Positions 3,263 to 50,819 of a stretch of DNA of 64,000 nucleotides are shown here, piece after piece. Position 1 is the first letter of the stretch; each line of letters opens with the position of its first letter. Source of the stretch: Apibacter mensalis (GTDB lineage: Bacteria; Bacteroidota; Bacteroidia; Flavobacteriales; Weeksellaceae); contig NZ_LIVM01000002.1 in assembly GCF_001418685.1 (NCBI RefSeq), positions 1 to 64,000 on the forward strand, written 5' to 3'. The notes below the pieces were generated by a model. The model was not told the DNA's origin. It made no database searches and saw nothing but the letters and a program-made list of their open reading frames with translations. The position numbers were made by a program, and so were the translations under genes.

Positions 3263-3286
3263 TTTTTTATCTATTTATATAAGAGG

Positions 3287-6200
3287 TTATTCATCATCCT
3301 GATCTACTAATATCCAACCTCCCTCCTCTATAAGATTTTGTGCTTGTTTAAATTTCATAGATTTTACTTCTCCGTTTCTCAAATTACGTACATGGACAAC
3401 TTCGTTTCTTCCAATCTTGTTGACACGCAAAGGTTCCGAGGCCGGTTTTTCTTGACTTGGGTTATCATCGTTTTCTACGTACTCTCTGCTTTCAACAATC
3501 TTTTGTTTTACCTCACGAGCCTGCTCAATTTTGGATTCCTCAGGTTCTGAGGGTAATCCACCTTTGAATAAGAAGGATATAATTTCTTTATTGGTTTTAT
3601 CCAACATATCTCTAAATAACGCAAAAGATTCTTGTTTATATATAACTAACGGATCTTTTTGCTCGTAAACGGCTGATTGTACGGATTTTCTTAATTCATC
3701 CATCTCTCTTAAATGCTCCTTCCAATTTTCATCAATTAAAGCCAAGGTAATTCCTTTTTCAAAGTCTTTTAGTAAAGCTTTTCCTTCAGAATTATAAGCT
3801 TCTTCCAAATTAGTTGTTACATTTAATACTTTAGCTCCATCTGTAAATGGAACTGAGATATTTTTAAATGTATTTCCTCTTGCCAAAAAGACATTAGATA
3901 TAATAGGATACAACTGTTGTGCCGTACTTTCCAATTTTTCTTTATAATATGCTTCAGCTTGTTCAAAAACTTTATCGTTCAATTCTTTTTCAGATAGTCT
4001 ATTAAATTCCGATTCATCTACAGGAGTATCCATAGCGAACACGGTTGCTAATTCAAATTCAAAATTTTTATAGTTTTTATCTTGTTTGTTAACTTTTACC
4101 AATAAAGCCGCTGTATCGTAAATCATGTTGGCAATATCGATACTCAACTTTTCACCAAATAGGGCATTTTTACGTCTGCTGTAAATTACTTCCCTTTGTT
4201 TATTCATAACATCATCATACTCCAATAATCTTTTACGAATACCAAAGTTATTTTCTTCTACTTTTTTCTGAGCTCTTTCAATGGAATTGGTTATCATGGA
4301 ATGCTGAATTACATCTCCTTCCTTATGCCCCAACCTGTCCATCATTTTGGCAATTCTGTCAGACCCGAATAAACGCATTAAGTTATCTTCAAGAGAAACA
4401 TAAAACTGTGAAGATCCCGGATCTCCCTGACGACCTGCACGACCTCTTAACTGTCTGTCTACCCGTCTCGAATCGTGTCTTTCCGTACCTATAATTGCTA
4501 ATCCTCCTGCGGCTTTTACTTCATCGGTAAGCTTGATGTCCGTTCCCCGTCCTGCCATGTTGGTAGCAATAGTTACCACTCCGGGTTTACCGGCTTCCGC
4601 TACTATATCTGCTTCTTTTTTATGTAATTTAGCATTTAATACATTATGCGGTATTTTTCTTAATTTTAAAGCTTTACTTAATAATTCGGAGATTTCCACA
4701 GAAGTTGTCCCTACTAATACCGGTCTTTTATCTTCCTGTGATAATCGAATAACTTCATTTAAAACGGCATTAAATTTCTCTCTATTAGTTTTGTATACTA
4801 AATCTTGCTGGTCGTTTCTAATCACAGGTTTATTGGTAGGTACCACCACTACATCCAATTTATAAATCTCCCAAAACTCTCCTGCCTCCGTTTCAGCAGT
4901 ACCGGTCATTCCAGCCAATTTATTATACATTCTAAAGTAATTTTGTAAAGTAATCGTCGCAAAAGTTTGAGTTGCGGCTTCTACCTTAACATTCTCTTTA
5001 GCTTCTAAGGCTTGATGTAGTCCATCGGAATAACGACGGCCTTCCATAATACGACCGGTTTGTTCGTCAACAATCTTAACTTGTCCATCAATTACTACGT
5101 ATTCTATATCTTTCTCAAATAAGGTATATGCTTTGAGTAATTGGTTCAAAGAATGAATTCGTTCTGATTTTATTGCAAAATATCGTAAGAATTCTTCCTT
5201 CTCCTTGTGTTCTTCTTCTTTGGATAAATTTTTATTTTCAATGTCGGTAAAAACAGTTCCTAGGTCTTCTAATACAAAGAAGTTAGGATCAGAATTTCCT
5301 TTTGACAAAAATTCAATACCTTTGTCGGTAAGCTCAACCTGATTATTTTTTTCATCAATTGAGAAAAATAAATCTTTATCTGCTTCTGGCATCATTCGGT
5401 TATTATCCGATATAAAATAAGCTTCAGCTTTTAATAGGATAGCTTTATTACCTTCTTCGGATAAAAATTTAATTAAAGGTTTATGTTTAGGTAAACCTCT
5501 ATACACCTGATACAATTTGTACCCGCCTTCCTTTTTATTTCCTGAAGCTATAAGTTGTTTTGCTTCCTGAAATAATTTTGAAATTTCATTTTTTTGGGCA
5601 GTAAAAATAGTTTCTACAATTGGTTTTAATTCTTGATATTCTTGTTTATCTCCATTCGGTACTGGACCGGATATAATCAACGGCGTACGTGCATCATCAA
5701 CAAGTACAGAATCCACTTCATCAACAATGGCATAATTAAGTTCTCTTTGAACTAAATCATTAGGAGAATTTGCCATATTGTCACGTAAATAATCAAACCC
5801 AAATTCATTATTGGTTCCATACGTAATATCTGCAAGATAAGCTTGTCTTCGAGATTCAGAATTAGGTTGATGGTTATCTATACAATCAACTTTTAATCCA
5901 TGAAACTCAAATAGTGGTGCCATCCATGCAGAGTCTCGTTTTGCCAGATAATCATTGACTGTAACTACGTGAACCCCACGTCCTGATAAGGCATTCAAAT
6001 ACATAGGAAGAGTTCCTACGAGAGTTTTACCTTCACCAGTTGCCATTTCGGCAATCTTTCCTTGATGCAAAACCGTACCGCCTATATATTGAACGTCGTA
6101 ATGAATCATGTCCCATTTAACATCTTTACCAGCTGCATTCCAATAATTTCTCCATACAGCTTTGTCACCCTCAACAGTAATATAATCTTTGGTCAAAGCC

Positions 6201-27721: not shown

Positions 27722-29374
27722 ATGCTATGTCATTTATCAATTCGTAATTATGCATTGATAGATATGCTGGATATTGACTTTCCCTCCGGTATGGTAACTG
27801 TTACAGGTGAAACCGGGGCTGGTAAATCCATAATTTTAGGAGCATTAAAATTAGTCTTAGGTGAACGGGCAGATTACAAATCTTTGAAAAATGTCGAAGA
27901 AAAATGCTTCGTAGAGGCGGAATTTACGTTGGATAATGAACTATTTGGTAAATTTTTTATTCAAAACGAATTGGATTTTGATTCCAACACAATTATAAGA
28001 AGGGAAATATTACCCTCCGGTAAATCAAGGGCTTTTATTAATGATACTCCGGTTACATTAACTATATTACAATCTTTGACCAAAAAGTTAATTGATATTC
28101 ATTCTCAGTTTGATTCATCAGACCTTATGAATGAAAAATTCCAACTTCATCTATTGGATAATTATTCGGGCACTACCTTAGATTTGAAAGAGTATCAAAA
28201 TGTTTATCATAAATACGTCTTTGAAAAAAATAAGCTCACCTACTTAAAGGATAAATTGATTTTAGGTAAGGAAGAGATTGATTATAAAAATTATTTATTA
28301 GAAGAGTTGATCAACTCCCAATTAGATTCAATCAATTATATTGAATTAGAAAATGAGTTGAATTTAATGAAAAATTCAGAGTATTTAGCTCAAATATTAA
28401 CTGAAATCAAACAAATTCTTAATAATGATGAACTTGGTGTTTTAAATCAATTACGAGAAATATGTTCCCGTATGGATAAAGGTTCTCAGTATTCTTCCGA
28501 TTTAATGAAATTATCAGAAAGAATAAGTAGTATTAGGCTGGAGTTACAAGATATTTCTTCTGAATCCGAATTTTTTCTGGAAAAATTAGACTTTAATCCG
28601 TTGCGATATGAAGAACTTATGCAAAGAATTGATTTAATTCATTCTTTATATAGTAAGCACAAAGTAAACAGTATAGAGGAATTGAAAGAAATACGTGATT
28701 CTTTATCCAAAGATACCTCTGATTTGCTGAATTTGGAAAATCAAATCCTAGCATGTCAAGAAAAAATTAAAGCACTTTCTTCACAACTTGCTAATTTAGC
28801 GGAGTTTCTTCACAACATTAGAGCTAAACATATTCCTGAATTAGAAAACAAAATACTTTCAAACCTTTCTTATTTAGGAATGGAAAAATCCAAAATTGAA
28901 ATTTCCATTCAAAAATCGGATAATTTTACTGTATATGGCACAGACATCGTTCGTATTTTATTTTCCGCAAATGCCGGTATACCTCTACAACCAATAGCTA
29001 AAGCCATATCAGGCGGCGAACGTTCTAGAGTTATGTTAGCCATAAAAAAAATTATGTCTGAAAAAGAAGCATTGCCAACTTTAATTTTGGACGAAATTGA
29101 TACCGGTGTTTCTGGTCGAATAGCAAATGAAATGGGAAAATTAATGCAGCAAATGGCCTCATCCATGCAATTAATTTCCATTACCCATTTACCTCAAGTA
29201 GCTGCAAAGGGAAACAGTCATTTTAAGGTTGAAAAAACAGAAAATTCGGGAGAAATTCAAACTCGAATACGTTTACTGAATCACGAGGAAAGAGTAGAGG
29301 AAATTGCACAGCTAATAAGTGGTTCAAATATCACTGAAAATGCTAGAAAACAAGCTCTTGAATTACTAAAATAA
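27722..29374 (+). CDS. recN: DNA repair protein RecN
   Basis: RecN is an SMC-like ATPase that acts early in double-strand break repair. It contains the Walker A GETGAGKS near 33-40, two long coiled-coil arms (about 150-370), the signature ISGGERSRVMLAIK and the Walker B LILDEIDTGVSG. The end VEEIAQLISG ... ARKQALELLK is family-typical. Length 550. Only five bases separate it from porD, so it belongs to the same transcript. Confidence 0.96.
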   Translation: MLCHLSIRNYALIDMLDIDFPSGMVTVTGETGAGKSIILGALKLVLGERADYKSLKNVEEKCFVEAEFTLDNELFGKFFIQNELDFDSNTIIRREILPSGKSRAFINDTPVTLTILQSLTKKLIDIHSQFDSSDLMNEKFQLHLLDNYSGTTLDLKEYQNVYHKYVFEKNKLTYLKDKLILGKEEIDYKNYLLEELINSQLDSINYIELENELNLMKNSEYLAQILTEIKQILNNDELGVLNQLREICSRMDKGSQYSSDLMKLSERISSIRLELQDISSESEFFLEKLDFNPLRYEELMQRIDLIHSLYSKHKVNSIEELKEIRDSLSKDTSDLLNLENQILACQEKIKALSSQLANLAEFLHNIRAKHIPELENKILSNLSYLGMEKSKIEISIQKSDNFTVYGTDIVRILFSANAGIPLQPIAKAISGGERSRVMLAIKKIMSEKEALPTLILDEIDTGVSGRIANEMGKLMQQMASSMQLISITHLPQVAAKGNSHFKVEKTENSGEIQTRIRLLNHEERVEEIAQLISGSNITENARKQALELLK

Positions 29375-29576
29375 TATTAACTTATTATTTTTTAACATAT
29401 GTATTAATCCATATTTTCAAAAAACTATAGCAACATTATAGTTGTTGTTTTATTTCATTCAGACATGATATATAGAAATTATACTCTCTAATTCAAATAA
29501 CACCCAAATAAAGAAATAAAAAAAGGCGAAAAAGGCCGATTACTAGCGCATTTCAGATTGTTTTTACCTCGAAGCC

Positions 29577-29639
29577 ATGAACAAAACAAAAGATACATTA
29601 GGATTAATAAAATACCTATGTAGCCAAGCTCCTGCATAA
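29577..29639 (+). CDS. Candidate 20-residue small protein
   Basis: The frame reads MNKTKDTLGLIK followed by YLCSQAPA and a TAA. It is GC-richer than the surrounding spacer and lies 17 bases upstream of a strong rho-independent terminator, so a short transcript of roughly 100-150 bases with this frame is plausible. It may be a small protein, a leader peptide without a following gene, or a chance frame in a small RNA. I do not recognise it from a family. Confidence 0.35.
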   Translation: MNKTKDTLGLIKYLCSQAPA

Positions 29640-29655
29640 CAGGGCAAAACCATGT

Positions 29656-29682
29656 AAAAACGGCTTAAAATACCGTTTTTTT
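29656..29682 (+). terminator. Rho-independent terminator of a short transcript
   Basis: AAAAACGG, a 9-base loop and CCG followed by a run of seven Ts. As it stands 280 bases behind recN and right behind the small frame, it more likely ends a separate short RNA than recN. Confidence 0.65.
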
Positions 29683-29845
29683 GTTTTCTTACTATCCCCA
29701 TTCCTTATACCTTGTTATGTATAACCCGTTTGCATGTTTACAACATACCTGATTTTTAATACAAAAAACATACAAAAAATGATTTGAGTTATAGGAGTAT
29801 GTGTACAATAATGACACAAAATGGAAAATAAAAAACAAGTATTTC

Positions 29846-29883
29846 TCACTTTTTATCAGCTTAATAAGAGTGATTTTTGTTTT
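29846..29883 (+). terminator. Weak hairpin between recN and mpl
   Basis: TCACTTTTTAT pairs imperfectly with ATAAGAGTGA around a 7-base loop and is followed by TTTTTGTTTT. It may stop read-through toward the convergent mpl gene. Confidence 0.35.
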
Positions 29884-29907
29884 CTATATTTATCTATAGA
29901 ATAATAC

Positions 29908-31254
29908 TCATTTAAAAATTGAATTCAAATTTATGCCTCCATAATTTCCTGAGCTCATCATTAGAAAAACAGAATTAGTTTTATCAATTTCTTTTAAATA
30001 TTTTTCCAATGATATAGAATCACTAAAGACTTTTAAACCACTTTTTTTAAAAGAATTTTTAATTAATTCTTCTGAAATCGGCTCCATTCTTTTAATTTTC
30101 AATGCTTCTTCACTATAGAAAACAATTGCTTCATCAGCTTCTTCTAACGAATATTTGTATTGTTTTAAAAATTCAGGATTTAGTGAGCTGTAAGTATGTA
30201 ATTCTAAACAAGCTACCAGGCGCTTATGGGAAAAATTTTCTTTAACTGCTTTAACTGTTGCCAACACTTTTGAGGGAGCATGTGCAAAATCTTTATATAC
30301 TATATAATCTTTTGTTTCATATATTTTTTCCAGTCTTTGAGAAGCTCCTTTAAAAGATATAATTGCTTCATAAAATTCTTCATTCTGAATACCTATTTGA
30401 TTACATACCAGCCGAGCTCCTTCCAAATTCAAAAGATTATGTCTTCCAAATAAGGACAACTGTAATTCTCCCTCAGATGTTTGCAAGTATACTTTTTCAT
30501 CTCTTATTGCATAACCGGGTGTGTGATAAGGAAATTTTTTTATATAATTATTTGATTGCTCCACAACGTCTACGACTTCTTTATCTTCTTCGTTATAGAT
30601 TAAAGCACCTCCTTGACTTACGCTACTTACAAAAGATATAAATTGTTGTTTATAAGTTTCAAAAGTTGAAAAAACATTGATATGATCCCAAGCGATCCCA
30701 CTGATTAAAGCAATATTGGGTTGGTATAATAAAAATTTGGAACGTAAATCTATCGGTGAAGACAAATATTCATCTCCTTCTAATACCATAAATTCATTAT
30801 GATCTGTTAGTTTAACCATAGTATCAAAACCTTCCAATTGAGCCCCAACCATAAAATCGACATCTACATGATGATAGTTTAGAACATGGAGAATCATAGA
30901 GGTTATAGTGGTTTTGCCGTGAGAACCTGCAATTACCACCCGAGTTTTATTTTTAGATTGTTCGTATAAAAATTCAGGATATGAATAAATTTTTAAATTT
31001 AATTCTTTTGCTCTTCGAAGCTCCGGATTGTCTGAGTGTGCATGCATACCTAGAATTACAGCATCTAGATCCGCAGTAATCTTGCTTGGAAACCATCCCA
31101 GTTGATCCGGTGCAATACCTTGTTTTTTTAATCTTGAAAGAGAGGGTTCAAAAATCGCATCGTCTGAACCTGTAATAGTATAGCCTTTTTGAGCTAAGGC
31201 TAAAGCCAAATTATGCATGGCACTTCCACCTATCGCAATAAAATGTATTTTCAT
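29908..31254 (-). CDS. mpl: UDP-MurNAc:L-Ala-gamma-D-Glu-meso-DAP ligase
   Basis: Mpl recycles the murein tripeptide by joining it to UDP-MurNAc in the cytoplasm. It has the Mur-ligase Rossmann start HFIAIGGSAMHNLAL, the ATP loop GSHGKTT (110-116), EGDEYLSSPIDLRSKF and the C-terminal binding domain with YKDFAHAPSKV, whose form distinguishes Mpl from MurC. Length 448. The gene suggests DAP-type peptidoglycan and peptide recycling, in line with dapA. Confidence 0.93.
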   Translation of the reverse strand: MKIHFIAIGGSAMHNLALALAQKGYTITGSDDAIFEPSLSRLKKQGIAPDQLGWFPSKITADLDAVILGMHAHSDNPELRRAKELNLKIYSYPEFLYEQSKNKTRVVIAGSHGKTTITSMILHVLNYHHVDVDFMVGAQLEGFDTMVKLTDHNEFMVLEGDEYLSSPIDLRSKFLLYQPNIALISGIAWDHINVFSTFETYKQQFISFVSSVSQGGALIYNEEDKEVVDVVEQSNNYIKKFPYHTPGYAIRDEKVYLQTSEGELQLSLFGRHNLLNLEGARLVCNQIGIQNEEFYEAIISFKGASQRLEKIYETKDYIVYKDFAHAPSKVLATVKAVKENFSHKRLVACLELHTYSSLNPEFLKQYKYSLEEADEAIVFYSEEALKIKRMEPISEELIKNSFKKSGLKVFSDSISLEKYLKEIDKTNSVFLMMSSGNYGGINLNSIFK

Positions 31255-32570: not shown

Positions 32571-33881
32571 TTAATATAGAAGATCATAGTTCGGTCTAAT
32601 ACCTATCCATTGATATAAAATATCACTAATTTGCTGCCTCATGGCCTGATTCATATTTTTGATTCTAGCAGATGCGTGGTTAGCTCCGACAAGTTCCAAT
32701 ATAATGGAATTGGTATTGTGTGTAGGTATAACTTTTGTGGCACTCCAGGTGTCCAATTCTCCATAAATGTATATGAAATTATTCCCATTAGAATTTAACC
32801 AATTTTTTAAGTTCGCATTGAGTTTCGACGAAAAAGTTATTTTTCCAGCTTCTTTAGGTGGAAATACTGCCAAAGGATTTTCATTAAAATAATTTAAATA
32901 GTCTTTAAATGGTGAAACATCATAACCGTAATATCCCATTTCCACGGCTGCCTGATAATAATGGGGGGCATATTGTTTTATTTCCTGATCACTAAAAAAA
33001 CTTATATCAACTGAATTAATAAGATAATCTACTCCTTGGGCAATATCGATTAATTGAGATATGGAATCACATGAATATCCCCATTGCCAAAATGAAAATG
33101 GATATTCCAAAACAGTATATTCAAATGCTTTGCCTATTGATCCTACATAATTATATGTAAGACCTTTCATATCAGAATATGCTTTTACGTATTTTAACGC
33201 TTCTTCTTCATTACGTAGTAAAAACAGTTGAAAATCTTTAATTTTTTTTCTGCATTTTTCAGTACCCACATGGTCTAAAAAATCATATATTCTGGGATCT
33301 TCTAGTGAATAATTTATGGGAGCCACATAAGGAATAGATACATCTACGTCCTCCGGAAAAAAATACCGATAATAGATTGTTGTTTGGCCACCTTTACTAA
33401 TACCTGTACTTATCCATTTTTCTCCATATATTTTTTTAAATATTTCATTTATATGATGTAAATCATGAGCTACATTATTAAGAGTCAAATATTTCCAGCT
33501 AAAAATGATTGAATCGGGTGTGGACTCTCCAAAATATCTATGTTCTATATTTAAGAAATTTGAATTTAATATTTGCTGTAACTCGTTTTTAACATTATAC
33601 ATCTGATAACCTTGCGTGTCCATTACCATGGGATTATTAAAACCTGTATGCGTCAAGATGACCTGTTGGTTAAAATAATTTTTAAGCGGATCCGACCAAT
33701 CTAAGGGTTGTTTAATTGATAATTTATATTTTAAGGGACCACCTTTTAAAGTTTCTATTTTTTCAAATGTTAAATCTTGTTGTTTTGATAAAAATTCTTC
33801 TAGTTTTTTCCTGTCTGATTCTTGACCTGATAAAATATAAAAGGAAAATAGTATAATAATGAATAAATGTATTCTTTTCAT
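32571..33881 (-). CDS. Secreted peptidase of family S37 (PS-10 type)
   Basis: A 436-residue exported serine peptidase. The signal peptide is MKRIHLFIIILFSFYILSGQ. The alpha/beta-hydrolase nucleophile elbow GISKGG puts the serine at 162, preceded by EHRYFGESTPDS, both family features of tripeptidyl aminopeptidase-like S37 enzymes. The acid is likely in YIYGELDTWSATKV and the histidine in GANHASARI. No T9SS C-terminal domain is seen, so it probably stays in the periplasm. It likely trims short peptides for uptake. It is an isolated gene. Confidence 0.82.
   Translation of the reverse strand: MKRIHLFIIILFSFYILSGQESDRKKLEEFLSKQQDLTFEKIETLKGGPLKYKLSIKQPLDWSDPLKNYFNQQVILTHTGFNNPMVMDTQGYQMYNVKNELQQILNSNFLNIEHRYFGESTPDSIIFSWKYLTLNNVAHDLHHINEIFKKIYGEKWISTGISKGGQTTIYYRYFFPEDVDVSIPYVAPINYSLEDPRIYDFLDHVGTEKCRKKIKDFQLFLLRNEEEALKYVKAYSDMKGLTYNYVGSIGKAFEYTVLEYPFSFWQWGYSCDSISQLIDIAQGVDYLINSVDISFFSDQEIKQYAPHYYQAAVEMGYYGYDVSPFKDYLNYFNENPLAVFPPKEAGKITFSSKLNANLKNWLNSNGNNFIYIYGELDTWSATKVIPTHNTNSIILELVGANHASARIKNMNQAMRQQISDILYQWIGIRPNYDLLY

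Positions 33882-50743: not shown

Positions 50744-50819
<76 letters not shown>

Follow-up and report, generated by a model that had tools for sequence, protein, structure and literature searches.

A noncoding element in the spacer behind recN is present twice in the same genome, as two diverged copies. The stretch at 29577-29682 of the window (the whole 64,000 nucleotides of DNA analyzed) would be the 3′ part of this intergenic element, whose best-supported job would be to end transcripts by means of an intrinsic terminator that can be read in either direction. We infer a working terminator, the production of an RNA, and the arrival or spread of the element by duplication; an RNA ending there could belong to the message of the upstream gene, as its 3′ end, or be a short separate RNA. 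We consider it probable that a duplicated noncoding element of about 180 bases, extending to about 350, serves to end transcripts as a two-way terminator and that the 20-codon frame within it is there by chance. The main value of the analysis is a correction, that is, the short frame ahead of the terminator is very probably no gene here, and it is the within-genome copy that decides the status of the frame. The features are listed below in window coordinates.

27722..29374, + strand: recN, the upstream neighbor (open reading frame; gene name from the original prediction)
29509..29691, + strand: core of the duplicated noncoding element, comprising the 5′ conserved block, the hairpin region, and the terminator (from the second copy and shuffle tests)
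29526..29553, + strand: conserved 5′ block, GCGAAAAAnnnnnATTnCTAGCGCnTTT
29558..29567, + strand: segment TTGTTTTTAC, a possible competitor of the terminator through predicted pairing with 29654-29663
29577..29639, + strand: 20-codon frame MNKTKDTLGLIKYLCSQAPA, most likely no gene
29594..29622, + strand: predicted hairpin, TACATTAGG...CCTATGTA (fold predictions of both copies)
29656..29687, + strand: likely intrinsic terminator, arms 29656-29663 and 29673-29680 with a T-rich tail to 29687; it reads on the - strand too
29810..29859, no strand: downstream block common to both copies, the end of the longer alignment piece
29908..31254, - strand: mpl, the convergent neighbor (open reading frame; gene name from the original prediction)

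The frame and the hairpin lie where the original prediction had placed them. The frame opens with ATG at 29577-29579 and closes with TAA at 29637-29639, and the hairpin, with arms AAAAACGG (29656-29663) and CCGTTTTT (29673-29680) followed by a T-rich tail, begins 17 bases past the stop. Both are found in the 533-base spacer (29375-29907) behind recN, which ends at 29374, and ahead of the convergent mpl. The locally raised composition that had been proposed is also real, since G+C content goes from 20% in 29375-29508 to 33.5% in 29509-29690 and then to 26% in 29691-29907. An inverted repeat, AAAAACTATA/TATAGTTGTT, with T-rich DNA after it, was seen at 29420-29446 and is a possible terminator of recN itself.

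Two diverged copies in one genome

A DNA search with 29440-29720 gave an own-genome match at G000:C11:32671-32787, on the - strand, with 75% identity over 29588-29699 of the window and an E value of 1.4e-11. The second copy as a whole lies at about 32677-32911 of G000:C11, on the - strand (L023:3178-3412:-). The two copies aligned locally in two pieces, 29509-29566 (76%) and 29588-29859 (65%), and three matching blocks were found between them within about 29509-29859. The similarity scores were 44 for the core, 28 for the upstream part, and 26 for the downstream part, compared to shuffle maxima of 18, 26, and 22, respectively, and none of the 500 shuffles reached the score in any of the three cases. 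Because the core, the upstream part, and the downstream part each beat all 500 shuffles, an element of about 180 bases, and perhaps 350, is present twice. A lax own-genome search with the core model yielded a third match at chance level (E 4.15), which overlaps the second copy on the opposite strand.

The setting is the same at both places. Each copy sits just after a same-strand gene and between convergent genes, the window copy after recN and the second copy after a gene that we take, from its protein sequence, to be dnaJ-like, facing a convergent gene. Within the second copy, an internal self-similar stretch (L023:3312-3331 and 3270-3288, - strand; region L023:3270-3331) lengthens the middle relative to the window copy.

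The 20-codon frame

The original prediction had offered the frame as a candidate 20-residue small protein, and an open ATG frame directly ahead of a terminator does speak for such a gene. However, frames of this kind are expected by chance in shuffled spacers. In 1000 dinucleotide shuffles of the recN/mpl spacer, ATG frames of at least 20 amino acids numbered 2.64 on average compared to 4 observed, and at least one such frame was present in 954 of the shuffled spacers and at least four in 257. The frame is also broken in the other copy, the sole homologue found. The local alignment places indels of 1, 4, and 1 bases inside it, none a multiple of three, and a second alignment places indels of 46 and 1 bases there. 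The second copy has stops in all three frames across this region, and its own ATG, about one codon away in the alignment, opens 7 codons only (MQKVPKG). Searches with the 20 residues matched no Pfam family and no phage record. It had been proposed that conservation of the hairpin but not of the frame would speak against a small gene, and this is what the second copy contains, the terminator hairpin being kept and the frame lost. The frame is most likely a chance frame within a noncoding stretch, and the small protein is rejected with good confidence; we judge a real 20-residue product to be extremely unlikely.

Likely terminator, 5′ block, and possible RNA

The core alignment has 75 identical positions among 104 ungapped columns. 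All 23 of the 23 positions in the terminator arms and T tract agree between the copies, compared to 3 of 9 in the loop and 13 of 25 in the linker before the terminator. The probability of 23 identical columns by chance is about 0.0002, and that of three or fewer in the loop is about 0.013, so the hairpin with its T tract is conserved above its own loop. Arms kept with the loop lost would be the pattern expected from selection on the hairpin, as read from a single comparison, because only two copies are known. The hairpin energies, -6.2 kcal/mol (window copy, + strand) and -10.5 kcal/mol, are weak or modest, and a consensus terminator scan of 29000-30300 returned one site (shuffle mean, 0.5), on the - strand only. 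The description of the terminator as strong was therefore overstated on sequence alone, whereas the conservation of the hairpin in the second copy speaks for it. A real terminator at this site is likely on these comparisons.

Conservation also extends well upstream of the hairpin. The pattern of the 5′ block (29526-29553) has exactly two occurrences in the own genome and none in eight genus relatives with up to 3 mismatches allowed, and a form of it without the last four positions has one match in the window compared to 0.04 expected. A terminator does not require this block, which makes the strongest case for an RNA with some further role.

The predicted folds are less uniform. The hairpin at 29594-29622 was predicted in three of three folds of the window copy and in two of three of the other copy, where the pairing is shifted and bulged, and it was absent from the two-copy consensus fold. 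That consensus fold has 24 pairs, and covariation says little because just one of them is changed on both sides. Fold energies were no better than those of shuffled sequence, a level that an independent small RNA gene might be expected to surpass. The two copies had z values of -0.92 and -0.96, which became 0.0 and +0.35 once the terminator was left off, and 29500-29690 had a z value of -1.48. Folding of 29500-29690 leaves the terminator unformed, its T tract being paired with an A-rich 5′ stretch, and the two-copy consensus fold also partly pairs the T tract in this way. The pairing of TTGTTTTTAC was predicted for the window copy only when the 3′ arm of the terminator was omitted; an attenuator role is not assigned to it, since there is no gene directly downstream on the + strand to control.

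Excerpts of two published studies give TAnnTTTG as the promoter consensus of Bacteroidota (PMC7366714, PMC9723704). At the threshold used, the + strand of the window's spacer gave no TTG and TAnnTTTG pair. The second copy has two weak, overlapping promoter matches, both within its variable middle; on the - strand of the scanned stretch, the only match lies beyond the spacer. Sigma-70-type sites, whose value as a guide is doubtful in this phylum, numbered 11 in 29000-30300, compared to a shuffle mean of 6.7 (SD, 2.4). The suggestion of a noncoding RNA with its own terminator gains indirect support from the second copy, which fully keeps the arms and T tract and not the loop; at that threshold, a TAnnTTTG-type promoter was not detected in the window's spacer.

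6S-Flavo RNA is expected in this class of bacteria. Run on the whole window at the gathering threshold, Rfam found a tRNA at 50744-50816 and nothing else; the spacer, searched at E up to 10, had ten matches, each far below its family cut-off. Identity with 6S-Flavo RNA (RF01685) was rejected, as neither this family nor Bacteroidales-1 was among those ten matches, and both the 6S-Flavo and Bacteroidales-1 models match elsewhere in the genome, at a 6S-like RNA on another contig (G000:C3:125300-125438, - strand; L001:1501-1639). That RNA scored 47.2 bits with 6S-Flavo (cut-off, 85) and 44.6 bits with Bacteroidales-1 (cut-off, 60), and since both scores lie below the cut-offs, Rfam gathering thresholds miss it.

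Distribution, origin, and comparison with known systems

The element was not found in eight other genus genomes (some of them drafts and one 83% complete) by DNA, pattern, and model searches. DNA searches of two samples, one of 60 and one of 9 genomes, returned weak matches (E up to 1) from every genome, and the best match outside the own genome, at E 2.6e-4 in each sample, was short and A/T-rich. A covariance model, R1, built from the two copies with the 5′ block not included, scored 121.5 and 134.8 bits on the copies themselves. R1 matched 14 of 320 family genomes (E up to 0.1), one of them being the own genome, and the 13 other matches scored 30.2 to 34.8 bits (E 0.0106 to 0.099). The DNA of all 13 loci was inspected, together with alignments of 9 of the 13 plus L082; by eye, several of them overlap the ends of apparent coding genes. 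Genome contigs contained 59 stretches with the exact terminator pattern, all scored with R1 (best scores, 34.8 bits for L082 and 33.4 bits for L083). Viral contigs gave 14 terminator-pattern and 87 hairpin-pattern stretches, 94 of the 101 being scored with R1, and the best of the 94 was L130 at 32.5 bits (E 0.009). Over these 166 loci (13 + 59 + 94), the 5′ block had at least 5 mismatches at its 22 fixed positions, and in the 13 family loci at least 6, compared to 0 in both own copies. None scored above 34.8 bits, and because the 5′ block is at best five mismatches away, the 166 loci were rejected as homologues and taken as chance terminators. The stretch L130:6833-6930 on a viral contig carries the same terminator arms and a ATTAATAAAAT stretch without the 5′ block, probably by chance.

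The wider searches gave a similar result. The exact 5′ block pattern was found in none of the viral contigs. The own genome alone was returned from 395 order genomes by DNA search (E up to 1e-4) and from 395 phylum genomes by covariance model (E up to 0.003), the family, order, and phylum samples overlapping one another. DNA searches of plasmid and phage records with both copies gave short weak matches only (E 0.03 to 0.4), and the titles and abstract openings covered by a literature search name no such element. The element appears to be lineage-specific; it might release a small RNA, or it may merely be a duplicated transcript end.

Comparison with relatives bears on its origin. From the dnaJ stop to a common anchor there are 498 bases in the own genome (G000) compared to 81 in G008 and 80 in G004, which makes this spacer about 417 bases longer in G000. 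In G008 and G004 the element is absent after dnaJ and, by eye, another hairpin with a T tract is found there; in other genus relatives the sequence after dnaJ looks different. Between recN and mpl, G008 has a gene that is presumably oxidoreductase-like. At E up to 1e-10 this gene was detected in 4 of the 9 genus genomes, and G000 was not among them. The sequence after recN appears by eye to differ among other genus relatives, and the recN/mpl place is therefore variable. Imperfect A/T-rich inverted repeats lie at 29509-29524 and 29676-29691, and a similar pair is found in the second copy.

These observations would fit the remains of a small MITE-like mobile element that was inserted twice, a possibility that we consider rather unlikely. 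The longer dnaJ spacer, the gene between recN and mpl of G008 that was not found in G000, and the repeats near both ends speak for it, but there are just two copies, the end repeats are A/T-rich in spacers where many such pairs occur, the homology runs beyond the 3′ repeat, the plasmid and phage matches are short and weak, and a target-site duplication was not demonstrated. If the element is mobile, it would illustrate how a terminator might be brought to a new gene and take the place of the old one. Likewise rather unlikely, in our estimate, is that the two copies encode paralogous small RNAs that act in trans, each having a promoter and a terminator to itself, and that are comparable in kind to FopS/GibS. 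In favor of such a pair, the element lies between genes in two diverged copies that share the 5′ block and the terminator, most folds of each copy have a predicted hairpin, and multicopy small RNAs are documented for this phylum (PMC11697453). Against it stand the promoter scan, with nothing on the + strand of the window's spacer at the threshold used and two weak matches in the variable middle of the copy, the fold energies, which do not surpass shuffles, and the fact that the element was not found in other sampled genomes. A real RNA would mean a young pair of paralogous small RNAs specific to this lineage. A broader proposal, that noncoding units composed of a 5′ block, a hairpin, and a terminator form a family within the species, mobile or duplicated, and insert behind stress genes (recN and dnaJ), replacing the native transcript end and releasing a small RNA, seems improbable to us.

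A duplicated two-way terminator with a chance frame is the reading that we prefer. It is favored by the well-matched second copy with its three separately significant homologous parts, by the contrast of conserved arms and T tract with a diverged loop and linker, by the loss of the frame, by the extra length after dnaJ in G000, and by the position between convergent genes at both places. However, some points count against it. The arm conservation is one comparison between two copies, the hairpin is weak by energy, and the T tract pairs with the A-rich 5′ stretch in the longer fold and partly in the consensus. In addition, the 5′ block is conserved far upstream of the hairpin, where a plain terminator has no need of it, and the recN message may already stop at the inverted repeat of 29420-29446.

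Several known systems resemble the element in part. FopS/GibS of Bacteroides thetaiotaomicron are described, in excerpts of the source, as expressed RNAs of about 65 to 70 nt with 14 copies, 9 of the 14 intergenic, canonical promoters, a common seed sequence R1, and RbpB binding (PMC11697453). The likeness is in kind only, as both cases concern paralogous noncoding copies, mostly intergenic, within one Bacteroidota genome; compared to the 14 expressed copies with promoters reported in those excerpts (PMC11697453), there are 2 copies here and no promoter was detected in the window's spacer. A MITE of Porphyromonas gingivalis is likewise described in excerpts as short, intergenic, gene-free, and multicopy (PMC4596501). 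The present element shares with that description short gene-free intergenic DNA in more than one copy, but it occurs just twice, and neither clear inverted repeats at its ends nor a target duplication were seen. The element is similar in size to 6S-Flavo RNA, but it has no match to that model at E up to 10 and the 6S-like RNA of the genome sits elsewhere. Bidirectional intrinsic terminators between convergent genes are a known arrangement. The element resembles them in its short hairpin, flanked by a T tract and, on the opposite side, an A tract, which lies between convergent genes at two places, and it differs from a bare bidirectional terminator in that sequence about 100 bases upstream of the hairpin is also conserved between the copies.
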